Shown here one piece after another: positions 2,556-26,803 of a stretch of 34,738 bases of DNA (position 1 is the first letter of the stretch; each line of letters opens with the position of its first letter). The translations under genes were made by a program, and so were the position numbers. Below the pieces are notes generated by a model, which was given only the letters and a program-made list of their open reading frames with translations, made no database searches and was not told the DNA's origin. The DNA is from Desulfobacteraceae bacterium (lineage in GTDB: Bacteria; Desulfobacterota; Desulfobacteria; Desulfobacterales; RPRI01), in assembly GCA_011391695.1 (NCBI GenBank), contig JAABQB010000032.1, positions 1 to 34,738 of the forward strand, written 5' to 3'.

Positions 2556-5213
2556 TCATTCTTCATCCCAGTCGACTCCGTATTCTTCAGAAGCAACCGA
2601 TTCCACGGCCAGCACCTCCAGCTTGACCGCCTGCACTTTCCGGTAGATTTCGTTATAAACTTTCCTTTCGCCATTTACCGTAAGCAGGTCATTTTCAACC
2701 GAGATTCCGAACAGTCTTTCGTTTTCTTCCAGATACGGACGTATTAGCTCCCAGTCGGCCGGGCCCAGATCTGTAAACTCTCCGCCGTTTAACTGTTCCT
2801 TCACCACTTTGCGGAAAGGATCTCTCATATAGATGGCCCCGCCGGATGCAAGCGAAAACAGGTTTGAACCCGGATATGGAGTTGCCTGGGCGGTTGCATT
2901 GCCTTCATCATCTACCTGAAGACCGTTTAAAACGACAAAACCTCCGCCGTTTAACGGATCACCGGCCATGAAAGATTCGGCAAGGTAATCAAGGCAGGTT
3001 CCGTTGATGACGACACGCGGATGACCTACCGCGTTTATCAACGGACGCCCGGCCGCATTTCCCAGCACAAAGACATTTCCTCCCTTTGCGCCGTACATGA
3101 ATGTCTGCCCGACATCGCCATACACCACAAGCTTTCCTCTTTTCATTATCTGGCCGAGCTGATCCTGCGCGTTGTCGTGCACATATATCTCCGGGCCGTC
3201 AATGCCGGAAGCCAGATAATCGCCGGAACTCCCGTAGACGTCTATTCTTACACCGTCCGCTGATTCACCCAGGCCGCAGCCGGTAAACCGCTGCCCCCTG
3301 TATCCGTAGCAAATAAACTGCTTCCAGCCGAGCTTATGAGAGGCGCAGATAAGGCGCGCATCGCAATCATCGCCTTCAGGAGGAAATTCCCGGGCATTTA
3401 TTATCAGGATCTTTTCAGTCTTTTTGGGCGCCCTTAATGCAGCGCGGGTATTCCAGTCGATATGACGGTATATCCCGGAGCCTTTACCTCTCATACCGGA
3501 TGCCGAAGCAAAAACGGAGTCGAGGCTGTTTCTTACAATATTAAGCACCGAACCGCGTTTTTTAAGACCCAGGGGATACCGGCGGTCATTAAGAAATGTC
3601 AGTATCCCGATCGCTTTTGACGTGCTGTCGCTGCTTTGGCCGGAAAGCTTCGTTAACTCCGCGCATGCATATCTTAAAGTCTCATAATCCCAGCCAGCGA
3701 TATTTTTTATGAAAAAAGAGGCGCCGGACGCATGATCTTTCTCCGCAAGACATTTTCGTATTGCTTTTAAAACCGCGCCTGAATCTGCAGCCGGCCTGAT
3801 ATCAGGCGTCATTCTGTAATGGGCCTGCTTTCCGGTCAGTCTGACCGCATCGCCGAACTTGTTGGTACAGACCAGTCCTTTTTTGCCAGAGCCGTTTTTG
3901 TCATCCTTCACCGTGAAGATAAATGCGCCGCCGTCGGTTGCGCTTCCGCCGCGCGCATTCCAGTATTTGTCGGCAACCGGGCAGAAACGGTTGTCTTCCT
4001 TTGCAAGACTCTGAAGGGTGGCGTCTATCGCCTGCTTTTCAGAACATATGAGCCCTATCTGAACTTCGCCTTCCTGCAGGGCAAAAACCTGCGGGCGCAG
4101 CATGGCCGTATCCGTTATGCCGATAAGCTGAAAAGCCTTGTTATAAAAATCATTGCGGGCAATTATAAAAAACCACGGTCCGTCAGGCGAGCTGTGCATA
4201 TGGCTCGACTGGATCTGCCTGTATATTTGCTGTTTTGCGGGAGGCAGCAGGTCGAAATCATGCTCGGTGGTCGGCGCCATAGCCTCAATAATATACTCCA
4301 TCGGATATCCGTATGTCCGGTTCAGCAGATCGAGCATCAGCACCGATACTTCCGTATCCGTCAAAAACTGCGGGAATATATTGTTCTGTTTCAGGTATTC
4401 GCTGACTGCATGATAGTTGGCAAAGTCGCCGTTATGAACAAGGGCTTCATCCATTCCGATAAACGGGTGTGCGCCGCCCGGATGCCATACGCGCCCCTTG
4501 GTCGGAAACCGCTGGTGGGCGATCCATCCGTGCGCCTTGAAGTCATCCAGCAGGTAGTACTGTGCGACCTGCTCCGCATATCCTACGATTTTAAGGATCA
4601 TGAGGTTGCGGCCGTGGGAAAGCACAAATGCCTTTTTCTCTCCCATGGAAGCATAAAACGCCTGGTTAAGAAGATATGTGTTCCGATAGATATATTCATC
4701 TTCCACCTTCTGCGGGCTGATATCCTGTAATCCATTATCTTCGATAAAGCGGCCCAGCACGTCTCGTTTAACCCTCACAAAATAGCGCCAGACATCTGGA
4801 GGCCTGACCTCAAGGCCTGCGATGTCGCGGTAATCATCCACGGCTGGTATCTTCCCGGCATTGCTGAGTTCGAGATACGGTTCAATACTCATTTTTTCAA
4901 CATCTCTGCGCGCTTCAGGGTCTATCAGGGCAATCTGGAGCATATAGTGCGTGTCCAGAACATCCTGCGTGACTCCGAGGCTGCCCGCGGAAAGCCCGAC
5001 AGCAGCAATGCCGCCCCCCTTGCCGTTGCCCCGGTTGTGCATCTGGACCGAAGGCCCGAATATGTGACGTCCGCCGACCGGAATCGAAGAGATGAATCCT
5101 GTAACCCCGCACCCGCCTTCTTCCGCGGCCTTCTTTGAAGATATGTTCCCCTGCGGCAGCTTTGCCCTGCCGGCTAGAATTCTGTCGATGATTGCTTCTC
5201 TGTTCTTATGCAT
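2556..5213 (-). CDS. Glutamate synthase glutaminase domain fused to GXGXG domain
   Basis: The first ~450 residues form a class II (Ntn) glutamine amidotransferase. The nucleophile is probably Cys35 in GGCGVTGF, after a 34-residue leader that would be removed. RFPTKGR at 235-241 and HNGD at 260-263 are the glutamine-binding and oxyanion motifs. Roughly residues 600-800 form the right-handed beta-helix GXGXG domain that closes bacterial GltB (for example GKLVVYGDVGQTFMYGAKGG). The FMN domain that lies between these two in ordinary GltB is absent and is supplied by the next gene upstream. Glutamine-derived ammonia would be handed to that subunit to make glutamate from 2-oxoglutarate. It is the last gene of the operon, 82 bases after the FMN subunit, with a GGCGG box before its ATG. 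Confidence 0.88.
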   Translation of the reverse strand: MHKNREAIIDRILAGRAKLPQGNISSKKAAEEGGCGVTGFISSIPVGGRHIFGPSVQMHNRGNGKGGGIAAVGLSAGSLGVTQDVLDTHYMLQIALIDPEARRDVEKMSIEPYLELSNAGKIPAVDDYRDIAGLEVRPPDVWRYFVRVKRDVLGRFIEDNGLQDISPQKVEDEYIYRNTYLLNQAFYASMGEKKAFVLSHGRNLMILKIVGYAEQVAQYYLLDDFKAHGWIAHQRFPTKGRVWHPGGAHPFIGMDEALVHNGDFANYHAVSEYLKQNNIFPQFLTDTEVSVLMLDLLNRTYGYPMEYIIEAMAPTTEHDFDLLPPAKQQIYRQIQSSHMHSSPDGPWFFIIARNDFYNKAFQLIGITDTAMLRPQVFALQEGEVQIGLICSEKQAIDATLQSLAKEDNRFCPVADKYWNARGGSATDGGAFIFTVKDDKNGSGKKGLVCTNKFGDAVRLTGKQAHYRMTPDIRPAADSGAVLKAIRKCLAEKDHASGASFFIKNIAGWDYETLRYACAELTKLSGQSSDSTSKAIGILTFLNDRRYPLGLKKRGSVLNIVRNSLDSVFASASGMRGKGSGIYRHIDWNTRAALRAPKKTEKILIINAREFPPEGDDCDARLICASHKLGWKQFICYGYRGQRFTGCGLGESADGVRIDVYGSSGDYLASGIDGPEIYVHDNAQDQLGQIMKRGKLVVYGDVGQTFMYGAKGGNVFVLGNAAGRPLINAVGHPRVVINGTCLDYLAESFMAGDPLNGGGFVVLNGLQVDDEGNATAQATPYPGSNLFSLASGGAIYMRDPFRKVVKEQLNGGEFTDLGPADWELIRPYLEENERLFGISVENDLLTVNGERKVYNEIYRKVQAVKLEVLAVESVASEEYGVDWDEE

Positions 5214-5295
5214 TTCCGCCTTTCGCCTTACGTCTCAAGCCTTGCTGATCCGCGTCCAAAAAAATTTCCTGTTTCATCGATTCATTTCCCGGTTG

Positions 5296-6846
5296 TCATA
5301 TCACCAGTTTTATATTCGGCGCGGGCTGATATTTAATCCTTTCGCTTTCTTCCAGATAATCGAGATGAACCAGCAGATCACTTCGTCCGACGAGTTCGCG
5401 AATGCTTTTCATTCCGAACCTTCTTAATATCATGCACCATTCTTTCCGCCACGCAAGGTACATATTTACGATACGATTCTCCGCCCACTCTTCGGTTATC
5501 ATTTCGCCAAGTTCGGAGTCGGTGGTTGCTATGCCGCGGGCGCAGCCCCGGCCGCTTTCGCAGTTTCCGCAGCGCACGCATTCAAGGGCGACCAGGTCCG
5601 CCGTGCCGATAACGACCCCGTCCGCTCCGAGCGCTATTGCCTTGACGACATCCATTCCGTTTCTTATCCCGCCGCTTGCAATAAGGCAGACCTTGTCCCG
5701 GACTCCTTCTTCGGTTAAGAACTTATGAACTTTCGGTATTGCGTACTCAATCGGCATGGCAATATTCTTCTTTGCGATGTCCGGCGCGGCGCCTGTTCCG
5801 CCGTAGCTTCCGTCTATATGAACGATATGTGCGCCGGCATAATAACTCCCGACCGCCACCATATCCACATCCGAGGGAGTGGACACTTTTACCGACACCA
5901 AAACGCGCGGATTGATCTCCTTCACCCAGTCTACATGTTTTTTGTGATCCTCAACCGAGTAGACGCTGTGGAACGGAAAGGGCGAAAAAAGGGCGTTCCC
6001 CACCACGGTTTCCCGCATTGCAGCCACTCTTGGCGTTACCTTATCTCCCAGCAGATGGCCCCCGAGTCCCGGCTTTGCTCCCTGGGCGTATTTGAACTCG
6101 ACAACCGGTGCGTACTGTATTGTTTTTTCACGAACGCCGAACAGGCCTGTGGCCACCTGCGTGATAACATGGTCCGCATATGGCACAAATTCTTCAGGGT
6201 ACCCACCCTCGCCCGTGCAGGTCAGGGTGTTGAGACGTTTTGCTGCCCTGGCCCTTCCGACTATTACGTTTAAGGCGGTTGAGCCGAATGACATCCCTCC
6301 GCCGTAACATGGCATCGATATCGTTTTCTCCGGGCGGCCGTCGGAGCGTTTGTTCAAAAGAACGCTCATGTCGATATCCTCATCGGCAGGCCCGGAGCAA
6401 CTCTCTGTCTCCGTCAGTTTAAACCTGATTTTATCGAAACCGCCGCCCGAATTTCCGAGGCTGTACTCAAGATCGACTGCCGGCAGATTGCCGGTTTCAG
6501 CCATTTCCCAGTGCGCAATCAGCATTTCATCCGTCCAGCGGTAATCGCCGAGCGTATCTAATATCGGATTAAGACTCAGAGTCAGGGCCTGTTCCGGGCA
6601 CCGGTCTATGCAAAAAAAGTCATTTTCCCTGCACGCAAAGCCGATGCATTTATGCTCAACGGGGCGAAGCGATTTGTTGAAATTCTCATATCTTTGATGC
6701 ACCCCATAAGGGCAGAGCTTTGCGCACAGACCGCATGAAATGCAGCGGGAGTTTCTCCTGACAGTGTACTTGCCTATCGTATTTCTGAACCGGGATGGTG
6801 TAACCCTTGTCTCCGGAAATACATTCTTCTTTTTTCTGTTTTTCAT
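5296..6846 (-). CDS. gltB: Glutamate synthase FMN/iron-sulfur subunit (archaeal-type GltB)
   Basis: The 516-residue protein begins with a ferredoxin-like segment of eight cysteines (35, 38, 41, 45 and 67, 72, 79, 83) for two 4Fe-4S clusters. The FMN-binding (beta/alpha)8 domain follows, with the expected signatures MPCYGGGMSFGS, TGEGGYPEE, AKPGLGGHLLGDKVTP and ASGGIRNGMDVVKAIALGAD. After this, CVRCGNCESGRGC matches the 3Fe-4S site of glutamate synthase. It should make glutamate from 2-oxoglutarate and ammonia in the cytoplasm. No GltD-type NAD(P)H subunit is present nearby, and the extra clusters suggest that ferredoxin or another iron-sulfur protein is the donor. Its ATG comes 3 bases after the stop of the preceding gene, so translation is probably coupled. 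Confidence 0.9.
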   Translation of the reverse strand: MKNRKKKNVFPETRVTPSRFRNTIGKYTVRRNSRCISCGLCAKLCPYGVHQRYENFNKSLRPVEHKCIGFACRENDFFCIDRCPEQALTLSLNPILDTLGDYRWTDEMLIAHWEMAETGNLPAVDLEYSLGNSGGGFDKIRFKLTETESCSGPADEDIDMSVLLNKRSDGRPEKTISMPCYGGGMSFGSTALNVIVGRARAAKRLNTLTCTGEGGYPEEFVPYADHVITQVATGLFGVREKTIQYAPVVEFKYAQGAKPGLGGHLLGDKVTPRVAAMRETVVGNALFSPFPFHSVYSVEDHKKHVDWVKEINPRVLVSVKVSTPSDVDMVAVGSYYAGAHIVHIDGSYGGTGAAPDIAKKNIAMPIEYAIPKVHKFLTEEGVRDKVCLIASGGIRNGMDVVKAIALGADGVVIGTADLVALECVRCGNCESGRGCARGIATTDSELGEMITEEWAENRIVNMYLAWRKEWCMILRRFGMKSIRELVGRSDLLVHLDYLEESERIKYQPAPNIKLVI

Positions 6847-6849
6847 CTC

Positions 6850-8259
6850 TTATACCAGTCCTGATACTTTTTTTTCGCCGAAAATCGGACCAAAATTCTC
6901 CTTTTCCAGATCCTCGAACCACATGGAGCGGCCGACTTCACCCCGCAATCGCCTCGCTTCGCGGATGCCCATGGCGCCCATAACTTCAATCAGCTGGTTC
7001 CGCCATGCGCCGACAAGATTTATTATCCTCTGTTTCCCCCAGTCCGGATTTATGTCGCCGATCTTAACGGGACAGGCCTTGTCGTCCCTGCATCGGTAAC
7101 ATAAGCGGCATTCGAGCGCGATCAGGAGAGGGATGTCGATGGTGACACCGTCTGCTCCGCATATAATCGCCTTTGCCACATGCTCAGCCATTGCTATCCC
7201 GCCGGAGAAAACCAGGTTTACCCTGTTTCTTATAAGCTTGCCGACCAGCCTGAGGTGAACCTCCCTAATCATCTCCTTTATGAACCTGGGATTTTCAGAA
7301 TCAAGTTCCCGCCCCCGTGAATCCGCGTAAAAATGAATCGTATCCGCCCCGCACTCTGCAAGCTCAACCGCACGGGATGCGGCTTCGCTATTTAAGGGAA
7401 CACCCGCCGAGATTATGAGCCCCGTTTTTAATGCTCTTAATCCGGAGATTATCTTGCCTGATTCATTGTCATAGGAAAGCTCCATCATCCTGATTCCGGG
7501 AGCCCGCTCAAGAAAATCAATGTAGTTATGCTTTGACAGACATGGCACAAGGCAGTCGGCAAACCGGGCAAGATTGGCAGAATAGTATTCCGGGTTGATG
7601 AAGAACATGGTGCCGAGAAAGTAGGCGGCCCGGACAGCGGCCTGCAGCACGTTTTCGCTCAAAACCCCGAACTTCGGCTGTCTTAGCATGACAGGAACAG
7701 GAATTTCGAAAACGGGCGGCATTCCATCAACCGGCGATCCGTCTTCGGAAAAACTGAGCCGGGAATTCCGGCGGGAGAGTTCAATCCCCGTATTGATATA
7801 TTCGCGTCCGTGAATCCCGTCTCTTGTAGGCCTTACTATTTCGGACATATCAGTCCACATCGAATCGAAGCCTTCTCCTACGAACGGGCCGCGGTAGCCG
7901 GCCCCTGAAACCGGGATCTTTCCGGTGTGAGCCTGATACCATGTCCGGTGAATTACATCCGCTTGCCAGTAGTCGTCTCCAAGGGAGCGGTATTCGGGAT
8001 TGATCACGCGGGAGAAAATTCCCCTGGTGCACTCCTGAACACAACGAAAACAGCTCTGGCATGCATATAAATATTCGGGTTCAGCCATGTGCGCGACATG
8101 CTTATAATTATCCTTGAAAATATTGTATATGCATGCTTTTTTGACGCATTTCCGGCAGCTTCCCGCGCAGTCTTCACGGAATTCTATTGTGGTGTATTTC
8201 CCGATCGGCTTGAACCGTGGAGGCGCAGCTTTTACCGGAACCTGATACTTTTTTGGCAT
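6850..8259 (-). CDS. Glutamate-synthase-like iron-sulfur flavoprotein, divergent paralogue
   Basis: I start this at the ATG at 8259 (469 residues) because GGAGGAG lies just upstream and an earlier ATG at 8343 would overlap metF by about 70 bases. The N-terminus has eight cysteines (31, 35, 38, 43 and 67, 70, 73, 77) for two 4Fe-4S clusters. The C-terminal half keeps the barrel end of glutamate synthase (SGGIAMAEHVAKAIICGAD) and a 3Fe-4S-like CRLCYRCRDDKAC. The substrate motifs seen in the neighbouring subunit (TGEGG and KPGLGG) are missing. It has therefore probably lost glutamate synthase activity or changed substrate, and may carry electrons within a complex. It lies 13 bases after metF and 3 bases before the true synthase subunit. 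Confidence 0.8.
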   Translation of the reverse strand: MPKKYQVPVKAAPPRFKPIGKYTTIEFREDCAGSCRKCVKKACIYNIFKDNYKHVAHMAEPEYLYACQSCFRCVQECTRGIFSRVINPEYRSLGDDYWQADVIHRTWYQAHTGKIPVSGAGYRGPFVGEGFDSMWTDMSEIVRPTRDGIHGREYINTGIELSRRNSRLSFSEDGSPVDGMPPVFEIPVPVMLRQPKFGVLSENVLQAAVRAAYFLGTMFFINPEYYSANLARFADCLVPCLSKHNYIDFLERAPGIRMMELSYDNESGKIISGLRALKTGLIISAGVPLNSEAASRAVELAECGADTIHFYADSRGRELDSENPRFIKEMIREVHLRLVGKLIRNRVNLVFSGGIAMAEHVAKAIICGADGVTIDIPLLIALECRLCYRCRDDKACPVKIGDINPDWGKQRIINLVGAWRNQLIEVMGAMGIREARRLRGEVGRSMWFEDLEKENFGPIFGEKKVSGLV

Positions 8260-8272
8260 ACTCTCCTCCGGT

Positions 8273-9205
8273 TTACGCGGCCTGCGGCCTTGGTGAAAGG
8301 CCCGCTGCTTCAACGATTCTTCCGACAGTCTCTTCCCATTCAATGGCCATCATGTGGATGCCGTGCACCCCTTTTATCTCACGCAGTGCGGCAATTGTTT
8401 CCAGGCAGATACCAATCCCCTCTTCGGCCGCTTTTCCCTTGGGCACGCCTCCCATTCTTTTGATGACCGATTCGGGCACATCCATCCCGGCCACCTTTTT
8501 TGCCATATATTTTGCCATTCCTTCCGATTTTAACGGTGTTATTCCGGCCAGTATATGGACTTTTTCGGTCAGGCCCTCTTCGCGTGCGAGGCGCATCCAT
8601 TCCCTGAAGCGTTCCAGGTTGTAAACACACTGTGTCTGAATAAAGTCGGCTCCCGCATCTATTTTCTTTGCAAGTCGGATGACGCGGTACTCAAACGGAT
8701 CCGCAAACGGATTGGCGGCAGCCCCGATAAACATCCTGGGTGGAGATATGAGATCAAATCCGCTCATATCTTTTCCATCCGCTTTCATGACCTTTACCAT
8801 GTGGACCAGGTTGACCGAATCGATGTCAAAGACGTTCATTGCATCAGGCTGGCTCCCGAATGTCTGATGATCGCCTGAAAGGCAGAGGATGTTCCTGATT
8901 CCCAGAGAAGAGGCGCCAAGAATATCGGACTGGAGAGCTATCCTGTTCCTGTCCCGTGTGACCATCTGCATTACGGGTTCAAGTCCCATAGCCGACAGAT
9001 GCACGCAGGCTGCGATGCTCGACATTCTAACAATTGCGGTCTGATTATCTGTTACATTCACCGCGTCCACATGCCCTCTCAACAATTCGCCTTTTCTCCG
9101 GATTATCTCAGGATCAGCGCCACGGGGCGGCCCGCACTCGGCTGTTACTGCGAATTTTCCATCTGATAAAACACGCTGCAGGTTGCTTGGTGATTCCGGC
9201 TTCAT
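8273..9205 (-). CDS. metF: Methylenetetrahydrofolate reductase, MetF subunit
   Basis: This 310-residue flavoprotein interconverts 5,10-methylene- and 5-methyl-tetrahydrofolate in the cytoplasm. It spans the FAD/folate barrel, with TAECGPPRGAD near the N-terminus, VTDNQ at 51-55, LGIRNILCLSGD in the middle and GADFIQTQ in the C-terminal half. The frame overlaps metV by 4 bases (ATGA), as expected for the two-subunit MetFV enzymes of acetogens and sulfate reducers. There the reaction belongs to the Wood-Ljungdahl pathway and the electrons do not come directly from NAD(P)H. In a sulfate reducer it could run in the oxidative direction. The following gene begins 13 bases after its stop. Confidence 0.9.
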   Translation of the reverse strand: MKPESPSNLQRVLSDGKFAVTAECGPPRGADPEIIRRKGELLRGHVDAVNVTDNQTAIVRMSSIAACVHLSAMGLEPVMQMVTRDRNRIALQSDILGASSLGIRNILCLSGDHQTFGSQPDAMNVFDIDSVNLVHMVKVMKADGKDMSGFDLISPPRMFIGAAANPFADPFEYRVIRLAKKIDAGADFIQTQCVYNLERFREWMRLAREEGLTEKVHILAGITPLKSEGMAKYMAKKVAGMDVPESVIKRMGGVPKGKAAEEGIGICLETIAALREIKGVHGIHMMAIEWEETVGRIVEAAGLSPRPQAA

Positions 9206-9870
9206 ATTACATGATCCTCTCTTACCAGTTTTCTGGGTCCGCCGGCATGACTGGTTCGCCAGTCTTTCGGGGGATTGTATTTTCTCAAATTGTCAAGCTG
9301 CCCGAGAGCGGTCAACCTCGTGATAATCTGCTGCCAGGCGCAATCCGTCTCCGGATTTATTTCGCATTTTCCGATACGGGAACCGCCGCAGGGACCGTTC
9401 TGGAGTTTTTTGGCACATCTTGAAACAGGGCATACCCCGCCGAAAACAGCCAGTTGGCAATCGCCGCATCCCAGGCATTCTTCGGTAAAGAGACCCTGCT
9501 TTTCAAGAACACCGATAAAGGTTGTATTGACTCCAGGAAGCACCGGAACATTCGCAAACCTCCTTGCAATTGCCTGTACGCCTGCTCCGCAGGCAAGAGA
9601 TAATACGGCCGTATTTTTAGAAATGGCAACTGCCGCTTCCCTTATGAATTCATCTTCGCACTGCCGCTCCACGGTCAATTCCTCTATGTAGATGCTCCTG
9701 CCGTCTTTTTTAAACAAAAGACGCAAAGCGGAAGATAAGGTTGCAACTTCGTCTTCTCCGCCTGCAAAGCATGTTTTCACGCAGGTTCCGCAGCCGAGAA
9801 CAAGCAACTTCTTGTAAGGCGAAACAATTTCCCTGATTTCCGCAATAGATTTCTGTTTTCCGACTATCAT
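9202..9870 (-). CDS. metV: MetV, zinc/iron-sulfur subunit of methylene-THF reductase
   Basis: The 222-residue protein has an N-terminal GCGTCVKTC motif (Cys27, 30, 34) and a cysteine-rich C-terminal region with CLGCGDC, CPVSRCAKK, NGPCGG and a last Cys near ETDCAW. This is the layout of the methylene-tetrahydrofolate reductase C-terminal family. MetV partners MetF and carries clusters and a metal site that feed electrons to the flavin. GGAGAG lies upstream of its ATG, and its stop overlaps the metF start. It follows the MvhD-like gene by 38 bases, recalling Moorella, where MetFV is associated with HdrABC-MvhD; no hdr genes are seen here. Confidence 0.88.
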   Translation of the reverse strand: MIVGKQKSIAEIREIVSPYKKLLVLGCGTCVKTCFAGGEDEVATLSSALRLLFKKDGRSIYIEELTVERQCEDEFIREAAVAISKNTAVLSLACGAGVQAIARRFANVPVLPGVNTTFIGVLEKQGLFTEECLGCGDCQLAVFGGVCPVSRCAKKLQNGPCGGSRIGKCEINPETDCAWQQIITRLTALGQLDNLRKYNPPKDWRTSHAGGPRKLVREDHVI

Positions 9871-9908
9871 GATGATTCTCTCCGTTTGAGATCTTTTAAA
9901 TGCTCACT

Positions 9909-10313
9909 TCACTTCGCCGGGTTCGGCCCCATGTCGTTTATATCCGACAAGATCTGCCGAAATATCTTCCCGATATTTTCGGTATCGCCGGATTCGGCAT
10001 TGTGAAGCGAAAGGCGCCTTCCCTCCAGCCCGATTTCATCAAGCAGTTTTTTAATAAAGTTCACCCTTTTCTTTGCCCTTATATTTCCCTCCACATAACG
10101 GCATTGCCCTTCCGGGCACACAAAAACAGCTACTGCATCAGCGCCGGCCTCAAACGCCCTGAGAAGAAAAACATCCTTTACCATGCTTGAACAGGCCATC
10201 TTAACAGTTTTAAGCTCGAATGCGACTCCTGATAAAACAGAAAGTGACGCACGGTCGTTGAATGCGTTGATGCAGTAAAACAGTGTTATCTGCGGTTGAA
10301 TTTTTTTTATCAT
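9909..10313 (-). CDS. MvhD-like hydrogenase/heterodisulfide-reductase iron-sulfur subunit (variant)
   Basis: I use the ATG at 10313 (134 residues); a TTG nine codons further upstream is possible. The protein resembles MvhD, the small 2Fe-2S protein that passes electrons from a hydrogenase or dehydrogenase to HdrA-type proteins. Recognisable parts are MACSSMVKDVFLLRAFEAGA, CPEGQCRYVEGNIRAKKRV and the LLDEIGLEGRRL helix. It has only four cysteines (14, 41, 66, 71): the usual FCCQWCSYAG opening is reduced to FYCINAFND. As first gene before metV and metF it is a good candidate electron link for the MetFV enzyme. The altered opening means the cluster ligands may differ. Confidence 0.75.
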   Translation of the reverse strand: MIKKIQPQITLFYCINAFNDRASLSVLSGVAFELKTVKMACSSMVKDVFLLRAFEAGADAVAVFVCPEGQCRYVEGNIRAKKRVNFIKKLLDEIGLEGRRLSLHNAESGDTENIGKIFRQILSDINDMGPNPAK

Positions 10314-10827: not shown

Positions 10828-12240
10828 TTATATATCATAATAAAGCATAAATTCATGCGGGTGCGGGCGAAGTTTTACAGGATTGATTTCGCTTTTTATT
10901 TTGTATTCGACCCATGTGTCGATTACATCCTGTGTAAAAACGCCGCCTTTAAGCAGAAATTCTTTGTCGTTCTTCAAAGCATTTAACGCCTCGTCGAGAG
11001 AGCCAGGAGCAGTAGGAATATTTGCAAGTTCTTCGGGCGGAAGATCATAAATATTCTTGTCAAGAGGATCACCCGGATCAATCTTGTTTTCTATGCCGTC
11101 TAATACCGCCATCAGAATTGCGGAAAAAGCCAGATATCCGTTGCATGACGGATCTGGTGTCCTGAATTCCACACGTTTAGCCTTAGGCGACGTTGAGTAC
11201 ATCGGGATACGGATTGCAGCGCTTCTGTTTCTGCTTGAATACGCAAGATTGACGGGCGCTTCAAACCCGGGAACAAGTCTTTTATAGGAATTTGTCGTTG
11301 GATTCGTGAATGCGCAAAGAGCCTTGCAGTGTTTCAGAATTCCGCCTATGGCATGCAGGGCCTTCTGGGATACACCCGCGTATTTATCCCCTGCAAAAAG
11401 AGTTTTGCCTCCTTTCCATATGCTGACATGAACATGCATCCCCGATCCGTTATCTTCAAAGAGAGGTTTCGGCATGAATGTTACCGTGTGGCCGTTTTGA
11501 TATGCGACATTTTTCAGTACATACTTGAACCACATGAGCTGGTCTCCCATCTGAACAAGCGGTTTGAACCTCATATCTATTTCGGACTGACCTGCTGTCG
11601 CAACTTCATGATGCTGGCACTCCATCTCGATGCCGAGATCTTCAAGGGTAAGAAGCATTTCGGTTCTTAAGTCCTGGAATTTATCCATCGGGGGAACCGG
11701 GAAATAGGCCTCTTTATGACGCGGCTTGTATCCGAGATTTGGGCCTTCATCCCTTCCGCTGTTCCATATACCTTCTTCGGAATCAATCTCATAAAAGGCG
11801 CTGTTTTTCTGGGAATCAAAACGCACATCATCAAAAATGAAAAATTCAGCTTCAGGGCCGAAAAACGCCGTGTCGCCTATCCCGGTTCTCTTCAGATAAG
11901 CCTCCGCCTTTTTCGCAATATAGCGGGGATCGCGGGAATATGATTCCCTTGTCAGCGGATCCACGATGTCACAGATCATTACAAGTGTAGGAACCTCAAA
12001 AAAAGGATCCATCTTTGCCGTTGCAGGATCAGGAACGACCAGCATATCACTGGCATTTATCGGCTGCCATCCTCTTATGCTCGATGCGTCAAACCCGAAC
12101 CCGTCTTCAAAACTCGATTCGCTCAATTCCCCTATCGGAACAGTAAAATGCTGCCATAAGCCTGGAAAATCAATAAATCGCAGGTCAACGACCCTTGCTC
12201 CCTTTTCTTTTGCAAAACTCAACACCTCTTTTGGTTTCAT
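10828..12240 (-). CDS. glnA: Glutamine synthetase type I
   Basis: The 470-residue enzyme makes glutamine from glutamate, ammonia and ATP in the cytoplasm and normally forms dodecamers. Visible family motifs are [13 protein letters not shown] in the N-terminal domain, [10 protein letters not shown] at the metal site, GSGMHVHVS, and NRSAAIRIP. The adenylylation loop [11 protein letters not shown] places the target tyrosine at residue 398, matching Tyr397 of enterobacterial GlnA. That agrees with the presence of glnE at 20205-23093. AAGGAG stands before the ATG. It lies 129 bases after glnB and is probably the last gene of the glnD-amt-glnB-glnA unit, followed by two hairpins. Confidence 0.97.
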
Positions 12241-12369: not shown

Positions 12370-12723
<354 letters not shown>

Positions 12724-12758: not shown

Positions 12759-13976
12759 TTACATTGTATAACCTACCTCACTGTGCTGAGTCACATCAAG
12801 ACCCTGTACTTCTTCCTCATCGGTTACCCTCAGACCGGTAACATTATCCACAATCTTCACAATAACGGCAGTCACTCCCATGGAAAACGCAATCGCAGCT
12901 AAAATACCGACCGCCTGTATCAGAACCTGTTTCGGATTTCCGTAAAAGAGTCCGTCAAAACCGGCAGGATTAATTGTCTTGGTTGCAAAAAACCCTGTTG
13001 CAAGAGCGCCCCAGATTCCGCCCACTCCATGCACAGCCACCACATCAAGGGCGTCGTCATATCCGAACCTGCTTTTCATCATCATCGCAAAACAGCAGAT
13101 GATGCCTGCCACAATGCCGATGATAATCGCAGGAACAGGGCCTACAAAACCTGCGGCAGGAGTTATTGCCACAAGGCCTGCAAGTGCGCCTGATGCGGCT
13201 CCCAGAGTAGTCGGTTTTCCATGATATAGCCACTCCGCTGCAAGCCATGAAACGGCGGCGGCGCCTGCCGACAACTGAGTTGTAACAAGGGCCATTACGG
13301 CCACAGGACCGGCGGAAAGCGCGCTTCCCGCATTAAAACCGAACCAGCCGAACCAGAGTATTCCGGCGCCAAGAACCGTCATGGAAAGATTATGGGGCAT
13401 TATCGATTCTTTTCCCCAGCCCCTTCTTTTTCCAAGCATTACGGCAACAACAAGCGCAGCCGCTCCCGAATTTATGTGTATGACAGTTCCTCCCGCAAAA
13501 TCAAGGGCTCCTAGCTTTCCAAGCCACCCACCGCCCCAGACCCAGTGGCAGACGGGAAGATAAACAAATGTCGTCCAGAGCACCGTAAATAAAAGAAACG
13601 CCGAAAATTTCATTCTTTCTGCGTAAGCACCTGTTATCAGCGCGGGCGTTATGATTGCAAACATTAATTGAAAAGCGCAGAATAAAAGATGCGGTATTCC
13701 TTGGGAATATGGTCCCGGTGAAAGTCCAACACCGTTTAAGAAAGCCCATTCCAGATTGCCGGTAAAACCCTTTATATCCGGCCCAAAGGCTATCGAATAA
13801 CCGTAAGCAACCCATATCAGTGAAACCAGACCCAGGCTTATAAAACTCTGCAGAATTGTTGAAAGAACATTTTTAGACCGGACCAGTCCGCCGTAAAAAA
13901 GAGCAAGTCCCGGAGTCATAAACATAACCATTGTTGTTGCTATAAGCATGAATGCCGTATCACCCGAATTTATCAT
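12759..13976 (-). CDS. amt: Ammonium transporter (first copy)
   Basis: The 405-residue inner-membrane Amt/Rh channel subunit conducts ammonium. The first helix begins at the N-terminus (GDTAFMLIATTMVMFMTPGL) with no cleavable signal peptide. The twin pore histidines are in TVIHINSG and VVAVHGVGG, and the HWVWGGGWLG and GWFGFNAGS signatures are present. The C-terminal tail RVTDEEEVQGLDVTQHSEVGY is the cytoplasmic segment that PII docks to. GGAGG lies before the ATG. GlnB follows 50 bases later and is its likely gating partner. Confidence 0.95.
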   Translation of the reverse strand: MINSGDTAFMLIATTMVMFMTPGLALFYGGLVRSKNVLSTILQSFISLGLVSLIWVAYGYSIAFGPDIKGFTGNLEWAFLNGVGLSPGPYSQGIPHLLFCAFQLMFAIITPALITGAYAERMKFSAFLLFTVLWTTFVYLPVCHWVWGGGWLGKLGALDFAGGTVIHINSGAAALVVAVMLGKRRGWGKESIMPHNLSMTVLGAGILWFGWFGFNAGSALSAGPVAVMALVTTQLSAGAAAVSWLAAEWLYHGKPTTLGAASGALAGLVAITPAAGFVGPVPAIIIGIVAGIICCFAMMMKSRFGYDDALDVVAVHGVGGIWGALATGFFATKTINPAGFDGLFYGNPKQVLIQAVGILAAIAFSMGVTAVIVKIVDNVTGLRVTDEEEVQGLDVTQHSEVGYTM

Positions 13977-14118: not shown

Positions 14119-16776
14119 TCACAAAACCGGTTTTGGAAGTACCTCTGATATTGCAGCCTTGATTGAGGCCACCTGATCTTCTGAATCAACTTTTTGACCT
14201 AAAAAATCCGTCACGTAAAAAACGTCAACTACCTGGTCTGATTTTGTTGCAATTTTTGCAACCCGTATATCCAGCCTGCATAAAAAGATAGCATTTGTCA
14301 TGCTGTATAAAAGTCCCGGGAAATCATATGAAAAGACTTCAATAATTGTAAAAAAGCTTGAGCTCTTGTTGTCAACTTCAATTCGGTGAGGCTTTCCCAT
14401 CAGATGAGGTTTAAGATGCATGTTGTCCGACATTTTCTCCTTCAGGGCGATCGCAAGATCAAGCTCTCCCGAGAGAGCCGATTCAAGATTCTTTTTCGCG
14501 GAAGCCCATTTTTTCTCTTCAAATATCTGATCAACCGGGGGTTTGAGTGTAAAAATATCGAGTGCAATATTATTTTTCCATGTGTTGATCCGGGCATCAA
14601 GAATATCGAGCCCATTTAAAGTAAAGACTCCGGCCATTTTTGAAAACAACCCCGGCCTGTCTTTGGCACATATGGTAAGAATTCTTGTATTTGACTCGAG
14701 CGGTTTTTCCACATCCCATACGAATTCGGAACCTCCGAGACTCGAATAAAGTCTGTAATGCTCAAGAATCTCCCGGTCTGTCGTGTACAGAAGATATCTT
14801 GGAGGCAACACCTCGACATGCTTATTAATCTCTTTTCTCTCTCTTGCCGAGGTTACGGCACCGAGCAATTTTCTTTTTTTATTTTCAACCGCCTCAACAG
14901 CACCTGTTGCGGCAAGTTCGCCCTTTTCCATGATACTCAGTATCTTTAAGAACAGATCCCGAAGAAGGGTAAAGGTCCAGTCATTCCACGCCTTCGGACC
15001 CGTCGATATCGAATCGGCAACCGAAAGAAGGTAAAGCATCTTTAACAGCTCGATATTCTTTATTTTTCCGGCGCAGAAAAAGGCGGTCTCTTCATCATTT
15101 ATGTCTCTTCTCGTAGCTGTTTTGACAAGCAGCAGATGCTCTTCCACCAGAAACGAGACCGCTTCGATTGTCTCTCGTCTGAAACCCATCCTTGTGAGTA
15201 TATCCTTTGCAGTTTTTGCCCCGCGCCTGGAATGCCCGCCGCCCGGCTCGCCTTTGCCTATATCATGAAGGAGAGCAGCCCAGAGAAGAACCTTCCGGTT
15301 TTTCAATTCCTGGTAGAGATTTCCGCACAGCCAGTCTCCGGAGATATCCTCGTCAGTCCCAAAACTTTTAATGGTCCTGACGGCTCTTAAGGAATGCCTG
15401 TCAACAGGATAAAGATGATACTCGTCAAACTGAATCCTGTTAATGATTCCTTTTACCTCGGGGATAAAACGTTCGAGAAAACCGGTATTAAGCATATCAT
15501 CCAGAACACCGGATGACGGAGCCGGCGCGGCCAGTATTTTTTCAAACGACCTGATCACCGAAGCCGAAGCACTGAAAGCCCCGTCCACAATATAACCGAA
15601 TTCCCTTATCAGTCTTTTCCCTTCAGAGCATATAGGGATCCCCAGATTTGCGCTCTCTTCGAATATTGCAATCAGAAGTTCCGGATTGCTTAAAATGCTT
15701 TCCGAAGAGGCAAAATTGAGAGAACCTTTTTTTGTTACCTCAAGGCCCTCTGTCTTTGTATTTTTTAAAGACCTTCTCTTACGGGTCTGTTTTCTGTCGA
15801 AACCGACTTCATAAAGAAACATCATGAACTGCTGCTTTATAAATTCCATTCTGCCGTGAAGCTCTCCCAAAAACATTTCAACAGGCTTATGGCCGTTTTC
15901 AGAACTTAGTCTCAAAGCTTTTGCAACTTTCGGCTGATATTCAAAATAGAGCTGGTCACTTTTTCTCCCGGTCAAATAATGAAGTCTGTTTCTCGTATGC
16001 CATATGAAAGAGAGACACTCAGAAAAGCTCCTGAATTCGTCATGTGAAAGGTAACCGTAATATTCAAGATCCCTCGGTTTTTTGATATCCGACATGATAC
16101 GGGCTATCCAGAGCATCGTATGATAATCCCTCAGGCCTCCCTGCCCTTCCTTTATATTCGGCTCGAGCATGTATGTCGAATCCCCGAAACGCAGATGCCG
16201 GGTAGTGTTGCTTTCAACCAGCCAGTTGATAATTCTTTCCGGTTTTTTCACCAGAATTTTTCTCTGGAGCTCATCCATAAGGTCCGAATATAGAAACGAC
16301 ATCCCACATATGAAACGGGCATCAAGCAGCGATGTTAGAACCTGATAATCGCTTCCGGCAATGCTGATGCATTCTTTAACGGATCTGGTGGCATGTCCTA
16401 CATCAACTCCTATATCCCACAGGGGGTACACAACCTCCTTAATAAGCTTTTCGGCATTTTCAGGCACTTTTCCCCCGAAAAGGAAAAGGAGGTCAACATC
16501 GGAATGAATGCACTGCTCCTGCCGGCCGTATCCGCCAAGCGCAATTATCGCAAAGGGATTTCTATCAATCACCATTCCCGGTCCGATTATGCTTTTTTCA
16601 AAGCTTTCGAAAAAATAATCATCAAAAAGTCTTGAGTGCCGCTCTAGAAACAAAGGGTCATCATCTTTGAGATACTCCTCAAAAAATCTCTCCCTTTTCT
16701 GCTTCAAAACTTTCGAAGCATTTTCGTATTTAATATCCTCTATTTTTTCTGCGGCTGCGTTAATCAAAGTCTTCAA
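14119..16776 (-). CDS. glnD: PII uridylyltransferase/uridylyl-removing enzyme GlnD
   Basis: The 885-residue bifunctional sensor adds UMP to PII when glutamine is low and removes it when glutamine is high. The nucleotidyltransferase motif LGGYGRQEQCIHSDVDLLFL is near residue 80, with the catalytic Asp pair in SDVD. A central GlnE-like helical region follows, then the HD hydrolase (LLHDIGKGEPGGGHSRRG). Two ACT domains close the protein (ICAKDRPGLFSKMAG and EVFSYDFPGLLYSMTN). The start appears to be TTG at 16776 after AAAGGAA; no in-frame ATG exists before the upstream TAG. A consensus sigma-54 promoter lies about 70 bases upstream. Amt follows after 142 bases. Confidence 0.93.
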   Translation of the reverse strand: MKTLINAAAEKIEDIKYENASKVLKQKRERFFEEYLKDDDPLFLERHSRLFDDYFFESFEKSIIGPGMVIDRNPFAIIALGGYGRQEQCIHSDVDLLFLFGGKVPENAEKLIKEVVYPLWDIGVDVGHATRSVKECISIAGSDYQVLTSLLDARFICGMSFLYSDLMDELQRKILVKKPERIINWLVESNTTRHLRFGDSTYMLEPNIKEGQGGLRDYHTMLWIARIMSDIKKPRDLEYYGYLSHDEFRSFSECLSFIWHTRNRLHYLTGRKSDQLYFEYQPKVAKALRLSSENGHKPVEMFLGELHGRMEFIKQQFMMFLYEVGFDRKQTRKRRSLKNTKTEGLEVTKKGSLNFASSESILSNPELLIAIFEESANLGIPICSEGKRLIREFGYIVDGAFSASASVIRSFEKILAAPAPSSGVLDDMLNTGFLERFIPEVKGIINRIQFDEYHLYPVDRHSLRAVRTIKSFGTDEDISGDWLCGNLYQELKNRKVLLWAALLHDIGKGEPGGGHSRRGAKTAKDILTRMGFRRETIEAVSFLVEEHLLLVKTATRRDINDEETAFFCAGKIKNIELLKMLYLLSVADSISTGPKAWNDWTFTLLRDLFLKILSIMEKGELAATGAVEAVENKKRKLLGAVTSARERKEINKHVEVLPPRYLLYTTDREILEHYRLYSSLGGSEFVWDVEKPLESNTRILTICAKDRPGLFSKMAGVFTLNGLDILDARINTWKNNIALDIFTLKPPVDQIFEEKKWASAKKNLESALSGELDLAIALKEKMSDNMHLKPHLMGKPHRIEVDNKSSSFFTIIEVFSYDFPGLLYSMTNAIFLCRLDIRVAKIATKSDQVVDVFYVTDFLGQKVDSEDQVASIKAAISEVLPKPVL

Positions 16777-18251: not shown

Positions 18252-19742
18252 ATGAAACGGTTTGTAATAATAGGCTTATTAATTAGTATACTGTATCTCT
18301 TTTTTTCGGGCATGCTTTTTGCCGGGGACAAACTTGCAGAGGCACCTGTGTCAGATCAGGCGGTTGCCTCTGTGTCAGCTGCGAATGTTTCAGCAGCGCC
18401 GGCTGTGGCCGTCACTCAAGAAGCGCTGGATGCTCTGAAAAGCTCAATGCAGGTGGGCGTCGACACAGCCTGGGTGCTCTTCACCGCGTTTCTTGTTTTT
18501 TTTATGAACCTGGGTTTTGCCATGGTGGAGTCAGGATTATGCCGCGCGAAAAATACGGTAAACATCCTGGCGAAGAACTTTATCGTATTTGCTTTATCGT
18601 CGGCGTCCTTCTGGGTAATCGGCTGGGGACTCATGTTCGGCAACGGCAACCCTTTCGCGGGTCTGGAGGGTCTGTTTTTTGCGAGCGGCGCTGATAACAG
18701 CCCGGCCATGGGCGAAGCCTACAAGGGCGCTTACACCGCCCTTAACTGGACCGGCGTGCCTATGTGGGCAAAGTTCTTTTTTCAACTGGTGTTTGCGGGA
18801 ACTGCCGCGACCATCGTTTCGGGAGCTGTGGCAGAGCGCATCAAATTCCACTCCTTTATCGCCTTTTCATTTGTTCTGGTGGCCATTATGTATCCGATTA
18901 CAGGTCACTGGATCTGGGGCGGCGGCTGGCTGCAATCTTTGGGGATGTTCGATTTCGCCGGTTCCACGGTTGTTCACTCCGTGGGCGGTTGGTCTGCACT
19001 CGCCGGAGTGATCCTTCTCGGTTCCCGTCTGGGCAAGTACCGCGATGACGGTTCGGTTAATCCTGTCTTGGGGCACAACATGTCCACGGCGACTCTGGGG
19101 GGAATCGTGCTCTGGTTCGGCTGGTTTGGGTTCAATCCCGGCTCAACCATGGCTGTGGGCGACGGCAGCGCCATCGCGCACGTTGCGATCACCACCAATA
19201 CCGCCGCCGCAATGGCTGTTATCAGCTCAACCGCCACCTCATGGTTGCTGCAGAAGAAGCCCGATTTATCCATGATTATAAACGGCGCTCTCGCCGGCCT
19301 GGTGGCCATCACGGCGCCCTGCGCCTTCGTGAGCGTTGGTTCATCGGCCGTAATCGGCCTCATAGCCGGCGTGCTTGTTGTATTAGCTGTATTCATGTTT
19401 GACAAACTGAAGATTGATGACCCCGTGGGCGCACTTTCGGTTCACCTGGTAAACGGCGTATTCGGCACACTGGCGGTAGGACTCTTCGCCCAGGATAAGG
19501 TTACAGGGACGGCAACCGGCAACGGCCTTTTATTCGGAGGAGGCGCCAAGCTCTTTATTGCGCAATTGGTCGGCGTCGTAGCGGTTGGTGTTTTTACATT
19601 CACTGTCGCTTTCGCCGTATGGTACCTTATTAAGATAGTAATGGGGCTTAGGGTATCGCGTGAGGAGGAGATCGGTGGATTAGATCTCAGCGAGCACGGC
19701 ACAAAGGCTTATCCGGACTTCCAGGGTTTCCTTACAAAATAA
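18252..19742 (+). CDS. amt: Ammonium transporter with N-terminal signal peptide (second copy)
   Basis: The 496-residue Amt differs from the first copy. It has a signal peptide (residues 1-24), a ~40-residue Ala/Val-rich periplasmic lead-in, then eleven membrane helices as in AmtB. Pore histidines lie in TVVHSVGG and LSVHLVNG, and HWIWGGGWLQ and GWFGFNPGST are present. The tail RVSREEEIGGLDLSEHGTKA is the PII-binding segment. GGAGG precedes the ATG, 24 bases after the porin stop. GlnK follows 44 bases after its stop. By eye, the central part of the gene is more GC-rich than its neighbours, possibly a sign of separate origin. Confidence 0.95.
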   Translation: MKRFVIIGLLISILYLFFSGMLFAGDKLAEAPVSDQAVASVSAANVSAAPAVAVTQEALDALKSSMQVGVDTAWVLFTAFLVFFMNLGFAMVESGLCRAKNTVNILAKNFIVFALSSASFWVIGWGLMFGNGNPFAGLEGLFFASGADNSPAMGEAYKGAYTALNWTGVPMWAKFFFQLVFAGTAATIVSGAVAERIKFHSFIAFSFVLVAIMYPITGHWIWGGGWLQSLGMFDFAGSTVVHSVGGWSALAGVILLGSRLGKYRDDGSVNPVLGHNMSTATLGGIVLWFGWFGFNPGSTMAVGDGSAIAHVAITTNTAAAMAVISSTATSWLLQKKPDLSMIINGALAGLVAITAPCAFVSVGSSAVIGLIAGVLVVLAVFMFDKLKIDDPVGALSVHLVNGVFGTLAVGLFAQDKVTGTATGNGLLFGGGAKLFIAQLVGVVAVGVFTFTVAFAVWYLIKIVMGLRVSREEEIGGLDLSEHGTKAYPDFQGFLTK

Positions 19743-19786: not shown

Positions 19787-20128
19787 ATGAAACTTGTAAT
19801 AGCAATTGTGCAACCTGAAAAACTGAGCGATGTTAAGCAGGCGCTCACCACAGCAAAAGTTGCGAAGATGACTGTCTCCAGCGTTATTGGATGCGGGTCG
19901 CAGGGCGGACATACAGAGTCCTACCGTGGCGCCGTAACCGAGATAAACCTCCTTGATAAGGTGCGCTTCGAGGTTGCGGTCAATGACGAATTCGTAAAAC
20001 CCGCCGTTGATGCAATAATCAAGGGCGCGCGAAGCGGAAAGATTGGGGACGGAAAGATATTCGTGGTTCCCCTTGAGGAGTGCATCAGGGTACGCACCGG
20101 CGAGACGGGAGCCGCTGCTATCGGCTGA
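19787..20128 (+). CDS. glnK: PII protein GlnK-type, lacking Tyr51
   Basis: This 113-residue PII protein probably gates the Amt encoded just upstream. The fold signature [20 protein letters not shown] is complete. The T-loop reads [14 protein letters not shown]: residue 51 is Thr instead of the Tyr that GlnD uridylylates. Tyr46 is present but is not the usual target. It should therefore respond to 2-oxoglutarate and nucleotides without GlnD control, unlike the GlnB at 12370-12708. GAGGAG stands before its ATG. It ends the porin-amt2-glnK unit and is followed by a hairpin. Confidence 0.93.
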
Positions 20129-25848: not shown

Positions 25849-26120
25849 AGACGACTTTGTAAGAAGCTAATATGCAAGGCGCGCAAATCCTGAGGAATGA
25901 AGCGTACTTTTCGTACGCTGAGCCCTTTGAAGAACATCCAATTTTGTCCAAGTACAAGGAAGGCGATACTTTTAACCGCGGGAATACATTGAGTATTTCG
26001 AGGATTAAAATTTGAGCCTGACGCAGTAATCGGGCAAAAGGGGGTGTTATGCAAAGGGCTCACGCTGCAATGACGAAGGATGCAGTGCAACACAGCAGAT
26101 TAGCTTATTACGAAGTCGTC
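25849..26120. mobile_element. Palindromic repeat element, copy 1, interrupted by another element
   Basis: The outer ends AGACGACTTTGTAAGAAGCT and its inverted partner AGCTTATTACGAAGTCGTC bound the element. Its two halves match copy 2 at 26850-26977, including GCAAGGCGCGC, GAGGAATGAAGCGTAC, CAATGACGA and GCAACACAGCAGA. A 141-base insert at 25921-26061 separates the halves. The right end overlaps the 3' end of the Crp/Fnr gene and supplies its stop codon. Confidence 0.75.
25921..26061. mobile_element. Nested palindromic insert with 6-bp target duplication
   Basis: This 141-base sequence begins AGCCCTTTG and ends CAAAGGGCT plus one base. Its two halves are imperfect inverted copies around a small GAATAC/GTATTT stem near 25980-26000. 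ACGCTG lies immediately before it (25915-25920) and again after it (26062-26067), while the uninterrupted copy at 26850-26977 has ACGCTG once at that point. It therefore looks like a non-coding mobile insert. Confidence 0.7.
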
Positions 26121-26803
26121 AGGTTTTTACCGTGTTCTGCGAGATGCATAAGCCCCGGGCGGTTAACAAGCTTTATCTTGCGTCCTGAAACTGCTATTAA
26201 CTCCATGTCTGTCATTTTCGCAAAAATGCGCGACAAAGTCTCCGGAATAGTTCCAAGAAGACTTGCAAGCTGACTTTTTGATATATCCAATCTGACGGAA
26301 TCCTCTTTCCCCTGCTCATCGGCAAGATATAATAAATATGATGCAAGGCGGCCCGGAACCTCTTTCAAGGAAAGATTTTCTATCTGGACCGTAAATTGCC
26401 TGAGCCTCATTGAAAGAACAGCAAGCATGCTCAAAGAAAGGGAGGGGTTTCCTGTGATAAGATCCACAAAATCCACCCTCGGGAAAAACAGAAGCCGGCT
26501 TCCTGCAATGGCTTCAGCATTAGCAGGAAACGGCTGGCCAGTAAAAACAGGAACCTCACCAAAAGGTTCTCCCGTTCCGAAAATATGAAGGATTTGTTCC
26601 TTTCCTTCTGAAGAGACCTTGTATATTTTGACAAGCCCTTCCACAACAACATAAAAGCCGTTGCCCGGATCACCCTCTGAAAAGATGGTTTCACCCTTGT
26701 TGAAGTGCTTGCTTACTGCAATCTTTCTTATATCATTGAGCTGCTCATCCGGAAGACCGTCAAAAAGGGGTACAGCAGAAACTATTTCAAAAACATTTTT
26801 CAT
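26108..26803 (-). CDS. Crp/Fnr-family regulator, HcpR-like, without cysteines
   Basis: I choose the ATG at 26803 (231 residues), which has AAGGA before it; upstream codons run into a repeat element. Residues 10-120 form the cyclic-nucleotide-binding beta roll (FSEGDPGNGFYVVVEGLVKI). A dimer helix follows, then the winged helix, whose recognition helix is TIPETLSRIF. Glu188, Ser191 and Arg192 match the FNR residues that read TTGA. There is no cysteine, so it cannot hold an FNR-type cluster; this suits HcpR regulators, which bind haem and respond to nitrosative stress. It is divergent from hcp, with a matching palindrome at 26995-27008. Its last codons (LTTS) and stop come from a repeat element. 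Confidence 0.82.
   Translation of the reverse strand: MKNVFEIVSAVPLFDGLPDEQLNDIRKIAVSKHFNKGETIFSEGDPGNGFYVVVEGLVKIYKVSSEGKEQILHIFGTGEPFGEVPVFTGQPFPANAEAIAGSRLLFFPRVDFVDLITGNPSLSLSMLAVLSMRLRQFTVQIENLSLKEVPGRLASYLLYLADEQGKEDSVRLDISKSQLASLLGTIPETLSRIFAKMTDMELIAVSGRKIKLVNRPGLMHLAEHGKNLTTS

Follow-up and report, generated by a model that had tools for sequence, protein, structure and literature searches.

A candidate MvhD-MetVF-GltX iron-sulfur relay in place of GltD at a split glutamate synthase of Desulfobacterota

Glutamate synthase is a main entry of nitrogen into biomass, and its usual electron donor is NADPH, NADH, ferredoxin or coenzyme F420. Where, then, would such an enzyme obtain its electrons when its operon holds no gene for GltD and carries those of a methylene-tetrahydrofolate (methylene-THF) reductase? 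The question is raised by a contig of Desulfobacteraceae bacterium (GenBank assembly GCA_011391695.1, contig JAABQB010000032.1), analysed here over its complete length of 34,738 nucleotides (the window; contig C42 of a genome of 2.8 Mb in 116 contigs, 98% complete). Six minus-strand open reading frames (ORFs) follow each other in the order mvhD, metV, metF, gltX, gltS, gltB, with intergenic gaps of 38, -4, 13, 3 and 82 bases, of which the gap of 13 presupposes an internal ATG at 8259 as the start of gltX, the longest gltX ORF beginning with a TTG at 8343. By gltX is meant, as a working name, the gene of the 469-residue protein encoded between metF and gltS, and not glutamyl-tRNA synthetase. 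An earlier note on this DNA had listed the six genes with their positions, identities and gaps, and the ORF coordinates and Pfam matches confirm it on all of these points (table 1). On balance, it seems rather probable that the operon encodes a glutamate synthase in which an MvhD(-MetVF)-GltX iron-sulfur (Fe-S) relay is the electron input in place of GltD.

Central to this reading is GltX, which, judging from its sequence, is a degenerate paralogue of GltS with the 2-oxoglutarate/flavin mononucleotide (FMN) segment deleted and the Fe-S ligands retained. Comparison of 64 GltX with 41 GltS sequences by hhalign gives a near full-length alignment (probability 100, E 9.2e-68), in which GltX has a 44-residue gap at the 2-oxoglutarate/FMN segment (about residues 255-303 of GltS, starting AQGAKPGLGG). 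The segment missing from GltX aligns with AQGAKPGEGG of the solved Azospirillum brasilense enzyme, and the profile-profile comparison shows that GltX has also not kept GGGMSFGS and TGEGG, two further stretches found in GltS. That GltX is a second active synthase is ruled out by this deletion together with the loss of the neighbouring motifs. Twelve GltX cysteines (31, 35, 38, 43, 67, 70, 73, 77, 384, 387, 390 and 396) are invariant in 73 sequences; the last group is absent from the fused GltX of locus L064, which lies outside that set. A structure model obtained with 64 sequences is a TIM barrel (pLDDT 80.7, pTM 0.81) with a less certain N-terminal part, and a Foldseek search with it returns FMN hydroxy-acid oxidases on top; the glutamate synthase of Synechocystis (1ofd) follows at rank 45 and with a high root-mean-square deviation. 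Sequence and model together suggest that GltX arose from a catalytic subunit and serves as an Fe-S carrier. Thus, where the earlier note had spoken of Fe-S subunits, the ligands of GltX agree with it, whereas a plain Fe-S subunit does not fit a protein that hhalign identifies as a decayed GltS. GltX and GltS form a single ORF in eight loci (L064, L131, L176, L178, L182, L191, L192 and L193), and six further ORFs (L211-L216) hold both domains. At L194 (5815-8520) the gltX ORF has about 470 additional N-terminal residues, in which no Pfam domain is found and which may be an out-of-frame extension.

The other two glutamate synthase chains, GltB (glutaminase and GXGXG domains) and GltS (FMN domain and Fe-S motifs), carry between them, as judged by their motifs, every component of a synthase core. 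GltS matches the A. brasilense enzyme and has the GAKPG.GG motif and the cluster cysteines of glutamate synthases; the Glu of the A. brasilense motif GAKPG(E/L)GG is replaced by a Leu that is invariant in the 41 GltS of gltX loci. The match of GltB to GATase_6 (PF13522; 23.2 bits) is below the family cut-off of 27, and GltB is nevertheless taken as a glutaminase because Cys35 and the HNGD/TDTE motifs show no variation among 46 relatives. The likely nucleophile is Cys35, which follows a propeptide-like stretch. Each of 14 genomes tested has a gltB gene, even where it is not beside gltS. No GltD subunit of the NAD(P)H-dependent GltBD type was found among the six operon genes and the scanned neighbours. 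Indeed, a family search of 20 window ORFs, a part of those present, found no GltD, Hdr or hydrogenase gene, so that the earlier statement that no NAD(P)H subunit, HdrABC or hydrogenase is present holds within these 20, while Hdr genes do occur in one variant of the locus in other genomes.

MvhD matches the solved MvhD 7bkb_F (phmmer E 7.3e-18), and the four cysteines expected of the MvhD/FlpD family (14, 41, 66 and 71) are conserved at 0.98-1.00 in 65 sequences. MetV, with 13 cysteines invariant in 58 sequences, has no relative of solved structure in a sequence search at E 0.01; solved relatives of MetF are 6fnu and 1v93. A MetF barrel with putative catalytic Glu, Asp and Gln residues, accompanied by the cysteine-rich MetV, characterizes the pair as a MetVF-type methylene-THF reductase. 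Glu23, Asp112 and Gln190/192 are taken here to be the counterparts of catalytic residues of Escherichia coli MetF, Asp112 presumably being Asp120 of that enzyme. All four are retained in the window protein, and the four positions read E, D, Q and Q in 94 of the 104 gltX-linked and in 32 of the 33 other MetF sequences compared. The linked sequences that depart from this have Asp replaced by His in five HdrL-type loci or other changes (L173, L179, L180, L217), besides one incomplete row.

Is the linkage more than a peculiarity of this genome? Within the relatives set of 59 genomes, 17, the window genome among them, encode a GltX relative of at least 45% identity. The corresponding figures for a GltX profile (E <= 1e-60) are 64 of 291 genomes for the class and 101 of 395 for the phylum. 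Named genomes provided a set of 80 loci, the best ones out of 558 confirmed matches, which by their record titles are mostly from metagenome-assembled genomes of Desulfobacterota, with Dehalococcoidia/Chloroflexi also present (e.g. L077, L094, L095, L097, L106, L119, L122, L125, L145 and L146), single records from Latescibacterota (L131) and Poribacteria (L137), and one isolate, Desulfospira joergensenii DSM 10085 (L116). The odd records that stand alone for a phylum may be binning errors, which is unlikely to be true of all ten Chloroflexota records, coming from several projects. Linkage was counted in the 59 loci whose sequence extends 2.3 kb or more upstream of gltX, the 21 with less being set aside. 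The mvhD gene is upstream of gltX in every one of the 59, and mvhD, metV and metF are all upstream in 47 of the 51 in which gltX is at least 55% identical, the remaining four (L086, L128, L129 and L130) being without metF. In the other eight, metVF is not nearby (four loci), is upstream (two), or has metV downstream of gltB (two, one of them with metF). Outside the module, 34 upstream neighbours fall into 23 families and 33 downstream neighbours into 27. Since the immediate flanking genes are spread over so many families, only the module is kept, and its order, conserved across phyla with changing flanks, makes the operon more than a chance neighbourhood, which mvhD in all 59 loci likewise rules out. 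The order is therefore not confined to this genome, the outcome that in the earlier note would have spoken against its proposal, being kept in Desulfobacterota and Chloroflexota.

A further 40 loci (L171-L210), picked by hand for spread and not at random, were grouped by hand according to gene order. The window order is found in 14, mvhD-gltX-gltS without metVF in nine, mvhD-metV-mvhD-metF-gltX-gltS in five, and an order without metF in another five; the rest have a second mvhD before gltX (two), no mvhD (three), mvhD-metF (one) or metVF behind gltB (one). Across the loci, mvhD is the most constant partner of gltX and metVF a frequent one. In L063 and L207, which belong to one genus, metF is absent from the operon, the space between metV and gltX is taken by genes foreign to the module (a 362-residue ORF resembling a signal-peptide protein, and a von Willebrand/YfbK-type protein), and the sole MetF of each genome lies elsewhere, beside a metV.

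The gltX-linked MetF appears in a tree as a dedicated lineage beside the other MetF copies. The tree was built by a quick method from the 104 linked and 33 other sequences, the latter hand-picked from among the matches listed, reduced to 111 rows at 92% identity; on it, the labels linked and unlinked require 4 changes, against 26.1 in shuffles. A single clade (SH-aLRT 99) contains 55 linked MetF of Desulfobacterota and Chloroflexota and is separate from the other copies of the same genomes, and the metVF found behind gltB (L133, L136 and L199) falls in a different MetF lineage. MetF would thus have been recruited to gltX loci more than once, which is to be read with caution in view of the long branches that meet in this quick tree.

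The input modules themselves swap on a constant GltX-GltS core. In L188 (8114-10024) and L189 (8288-10180) a GlcD-like dehydrogenase of about 630 residues (FAD_binding_4/Fer4_8), which might act on a 2-hydroxy acid, stands before gltX, and neither mvhD nor metVF was found at the locus. L179 encodes a protein of 931 residues, HdrA-like by its domain make-up, upstream of mvhD-metV-metF-mvhD-gltX, and L180 has the same order with one mvhD before metV and one before gltX. The most elaborate form is a single-strand array of ten genes, gltB-hdrC-hdrB-HdrL-mvhD-metV-mvhD-metF-gltX-gltS, seen in all four genomes read for it (G165, G189, G092 and G131). Its Fer4 protein of about 188 residues and its protein of about 290 residues with two CCG domains match HdrC and HdrB in domain composition, and a protein of about 1500 residues has GltD-like and HdrA-like parts (domains scanned in L197 and L210). 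HdrA, HdrB and HdrC in cis, as in type IV Hdr complexes, are thus found in these four genomes and not among the window ORFs scanned.

In the relay proposed here, GltX would dock on GltS, and through the Fe-S clusters of GltX, of which there are probably three, electrons of MvhD (and MetV/MetF) would reach the GltS FMN, the site at which glutamine and 2-oxoglutarate would yield two glutamates; MvhD would have towards GltX the role that it has towards HdrA elsewhere. In the window version MetVF would most likely be the electron source, oxidizing methyl-THF to methylene-THF, or else a junction at which the two reactions share electrons, because the catalytic residues of MetF are kept and the genome has other MetF copies. 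The glutamate synthase couple is assumed to lie near -50 mV, an estimate of ours. The methylene/methyl-THF couple is given as -200 mV, and methyl-THF oxidation reduced flavin adenine dinucleotide (FAD) and rubredoxin in vitro (PMC8760232). Methyl-THF should be at hand because CdhC of the carbon monoxide dehydrogenase/acetyl-CoA synthase is encoded in 57 of 62 gltX genomes; MTHFR genes are found in all 62, most of which have several copies. Given the two potentials, electron flow from methyl-THF to glutamate synthase would be downhill, and methyl-THF is a plausible donor in the window.

Four MTHFR copies are encoded in the window genome; the one on contig C32 is accompanied by metV, mvhD and an HdrA-like protein. 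A second glutamate synthase is encoded on contig C23 (L242:4907-10051) as a 376-residue protein without Pfam match, a Glu_synthase subunit and a GXGXG-GltD fusion of 776 residues; the small chain of carbamoyl-phosphate synthase follows. As neither MetVF nor the glutamate synthase is the only such enzyme of the cell, a special function is favoured for the pair. A GltD/NfnL-like protein is encoded on contig C21, where matches of identical score at 3904 and 57203, near the contig ends and on opposite strands, may reflect a repeat or an error of assembly.

A shared complex, or at least electron sharing, between MetVF and glutamate synthase had been put forward in the earlier note. It is supported by the GltX-GltS fusions, by the dedicated MetF lineage, by the linkage of more than one MetF lineage and by the cis clusters of HdrC-HdrB-HdrL with two MvhD and MetVF; as a partner, MvhD is more constant than MetVF. 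A number of results weigh against the relay as proposed. The predicted structure of the GltX-GltS fusion (pTM 0.56) is too poor to show an interface; the GltD-containing enzyme on C23 means that the GltX-linked synthase is not the sole route to glutamate; and the evolutionary distances of five of the genes correlate (r 0.81-0.93, 45 loci) in a way that common descent also predicts. The part given to MetVF is touched by the lack of metF beside metV in four of the 51 close and five of the 40 spread loci, and by MetF proteins that have lost the putative catalytic Asp (the five HdrL-type loci, L179, L180 and L217). Furthermore, MetVF would be dispensable for the core, because mvhD-gltX-gltS loci without metVF exist in the divergent group (nine of the 40 spread loci, four of the eight divergent ones among the 59). 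MetVF as a universal donor is ruled out by such loci and by those with an altered MetF: in lineages without the catalytic Asp, MetF can hardly be the methyl-THF-dependent donor, and its persistence in the cluster after the loss of catalytic residues suggests a conduit role, for which a comparable proposal concerns a non-catalytic molybdopterin protein in Hdr complexes (PMC12054007).

Loci without metVF are also what would be seen if MvhD were fed in trans by an Hdr-type or other protein and served two sinks, methylene-THF through MetVF, with MetF a reductase, and glutamate synthase through GltX. Such a common donor is possible, if on the doubtful side. In the Moorella-type complexes MvhD joins HdrA and MetVF, and NADH is the proposed donor (PMC8760232, PMC5736913); moreover, L179 and L180 have one mvhD before metV and another before gltX, and an HdrA-like gene is upstream in L179. 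The lack of an Hdr gene among the window ORFs scanned speaks against it weakly, the neighbours of most other loci not having been scanned for Hdr; in L188 and L189 a FAD/Fe-S dehydrogenase replaces the whole mvhD-metVF block, which suggests that this is an electron-supplying position. It is rather unlikely that the gltX-linked glutamate synthases are, as a family, enzymes of flavin-based electron bifurcation or confurcation. NAD(P)H would then enter the ten-gene form at the GltD domain of HdrL, the strongly exergonic glutamate synthesis would pull one electron branch via MvhD, pseudo-MetVF and GltX to GltS, and HdrA would push the other branch to ferredoxin, MetVF being there a mere electron conduit; the six-gene form of the window would draw its electrons from methyl-THF or from an Hdr protein in trans.

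Co-regulation without electron transfer, in a nitrogen-responsive operon that includes MetVF because growth requires methionine as well as glutamate, the enzymes acting separately, is a still weaker candidate. It would agree with the nitrogen genes next to the operon, which are glnA, PII, amt and glnD in the window and are seen at some other loci too, and with the anabolic nature of both the methionine and the glutamate pathways. It leaves unexplained why genomes with other MetF copies have a separate gltX-linked lineage, why MetF stays beside gltX even after loss of the catalytic Asp, why a pure electron adaptor such as MvhD is included and why HdrCB-HdrL and MetVF sit within the glt gene set. 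Split glutamate-synthase-like enzymes of methylamine metabolism exist, and the Leu found for Glu in the GAKPG(E/L)GG motif of all 41 GltS could point to a related amidotransferase-type enzyme acting with another amine (e.g. N-methylglutamate synthase-like), for which MetVF would handle the one-carbon unit. This is very improbable in the light of the invariant Cys35 and HNGD/TDTE motifs of GltB, of the operon following glnA, PII, amt and glnD, and of the lack of an N-methylglutamate dehydrogenase-like gene among the window ORFs scanned.

How does the proposed relay compare with known systems? With the NADPH-dependent GltBD of A. brasilense (1ea0, 2vdc, 6s6s) the locus shares the FMN/2-oxoglutarate core of GltS and the GXGXG and glutaminase parts, but GltS and GltB are split chains, ferredoxin-like Fe-S motifs and a degenerate GltS copy are added, and the operon has MvhD/MetVF instead of GltD. 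The ferredoxin-dependent enzyme of Synechocystis (1ofd/1llw), the first entry of which is found by the Foldseek search of GltX, also lacks an NADPH subunit; here, by contrast, the chains are split, the input subunits are rich in Fe-S motifs and dedicated MvhD/MetVF genes replace the soluble ferredoxin. The mvhD-metV-metF set is that of the type IV HdrCBA-MvhD-MetVF complex as described for Moorella thermoacetica (PMC8760232), and HdrC-like, HdrB-like and HdrA-containing proteins also accompany it in the four genomes of the ten-gene form; in the window, however, GltX-GltS-GltB stand where HdrABC would, so that the second redox partner would be glutamate synthase. In the loci described for Desulfobacterium autotrophicum, HdrL, a GltD-HdrA type fusion similar to the protein of about 1500 residues of the ten-gene variant, is beside mvhD, with Dsr or Fdh genes and not with gltX-gltS-gltB or metVF (PMC2702500). 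Glutamate synthase genes with a swapped electron-input subunit are described in the FrhB10 clusters of anaerobic methanotrophic (ANME) archaea, where the input is FrhB/F420 rather than MvhD-MetVF-GltX (PMC9012536). A literature search, with most subscription journals and preprints outside its coverage, found no published description of a gltX-containing cluster; the glutamate synthase variant and, equally, the MvhD-MetVF partner are new.

Electron input through MvhD-MetVF-GltX would add a donor route to those of glutamate synthase and couple one-carbon to nitrogen metabolism through shared electrons. For MetVF-type reductases the redox partner used in the cell is still being sought (PMC8760232), and the gltX loci name a concrete, testable candidate. 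The swapping of modules on the GltX-GltS core illustrates how evolution builds redox complexes. Were the bifurcation reading true, anaerobes would recover energy from ammonium assimilation, and a candidate for the partner of MetVF would again result. A cultured carrier, D. joergensenii, makes experiments possible.

Table 1. Features of the operon and of its upstream neighbourhood (window coordinates).
Feature	Position	Strand	Evidence or remark
mvhD: FlpD/MvhD [2Fe-2S] electron adaptor, 134 aa, Cys14/41/66/71	9909-10313	-	Pfam PF02662 E 4.7e-26
metV: Fe-S subunit of MetVF-type methylene-THF reductase, 222 aa	9202-9870	-	PF12225 (MTHFR C-terminal DUF5981) E 1.4e-35
metF: methylene-THF reductase flavoprotein, 310 aa	8273-9205	-	PF02219 (MTHFR) E 1.1e-39
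MetF Asp112 codon; residue replaced in several relatives	8870-8872	-	
gltX: putative degenerate GltS paralogue, 469 aa, start ATG 8259	6850-8259	-	Pfam Glu_synthase E 4.4e-13, C-terminal part only
GltX N-terminal Fe-S motifs, Cys31/35/38/43 and Cys67/70/73/77	8029-8169	-	invariant in 73 sequences
GltX C-terminal Cys384/387/390/396, aligning with GltS cluster Cys423/426/429/435	7072-7110	-	
gltS: FMN/2-oxoglutarate (Glu_synthase) subunit with N-terminal Fe-S motifs, 516 aa	5296-6846	-	PF01645 E 2.5e-89; 1ea0_A E 4e-51
GltS motif AQGAKPGLGGHLLG (A. brasilense: AQGAKPGEGGQLPG); GltX without it	6046-6087	-	
gltB: class II glutaminase and GXGXG domain in a single chain, 885 aa	2556-5213	-	PF01493 E 1.6e-11; PF13522 E 7.6e-5
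glnA: type I glutamine synthetase; upstream, same strand	10828-12240	-	TIGR00653 669 bits
PII	12370-12708	-	upstream context
Ammonium transporter	12759-13976	-	upstream context
glnD: PII uridylyltransferase; upstream context	14119-16776	-	TIGR01693 618 bits

With glnA, PII, amt and glnD upstream on the same strand, the locus is a nitrogen-assimilation neighbourhood. Beyond glnD follow a second amt-PII pair (plus strand; 18252-19742 and 19787-20128) and GlnE (minus strand; 20205-23093), and the contig carries a nearly complete set for ammonium assimilation and its regulation. An Rfam scan of the window gave no match, and predicted promoters (14, shuffle mean 15.1) and terminators (17, shuffle mean 13.3, standard deviation 3.7) are little above shuffles. 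Directly downstream of gltB a cytochrome c554-type multihaem protein is encoded (1129-2481), and a CopD plus multihaem protein at 30548-32740. A Crp/Fnr-type regulator (26108-26926) adjoins a hybrid-cluster (prismane) protein (27088-28716).

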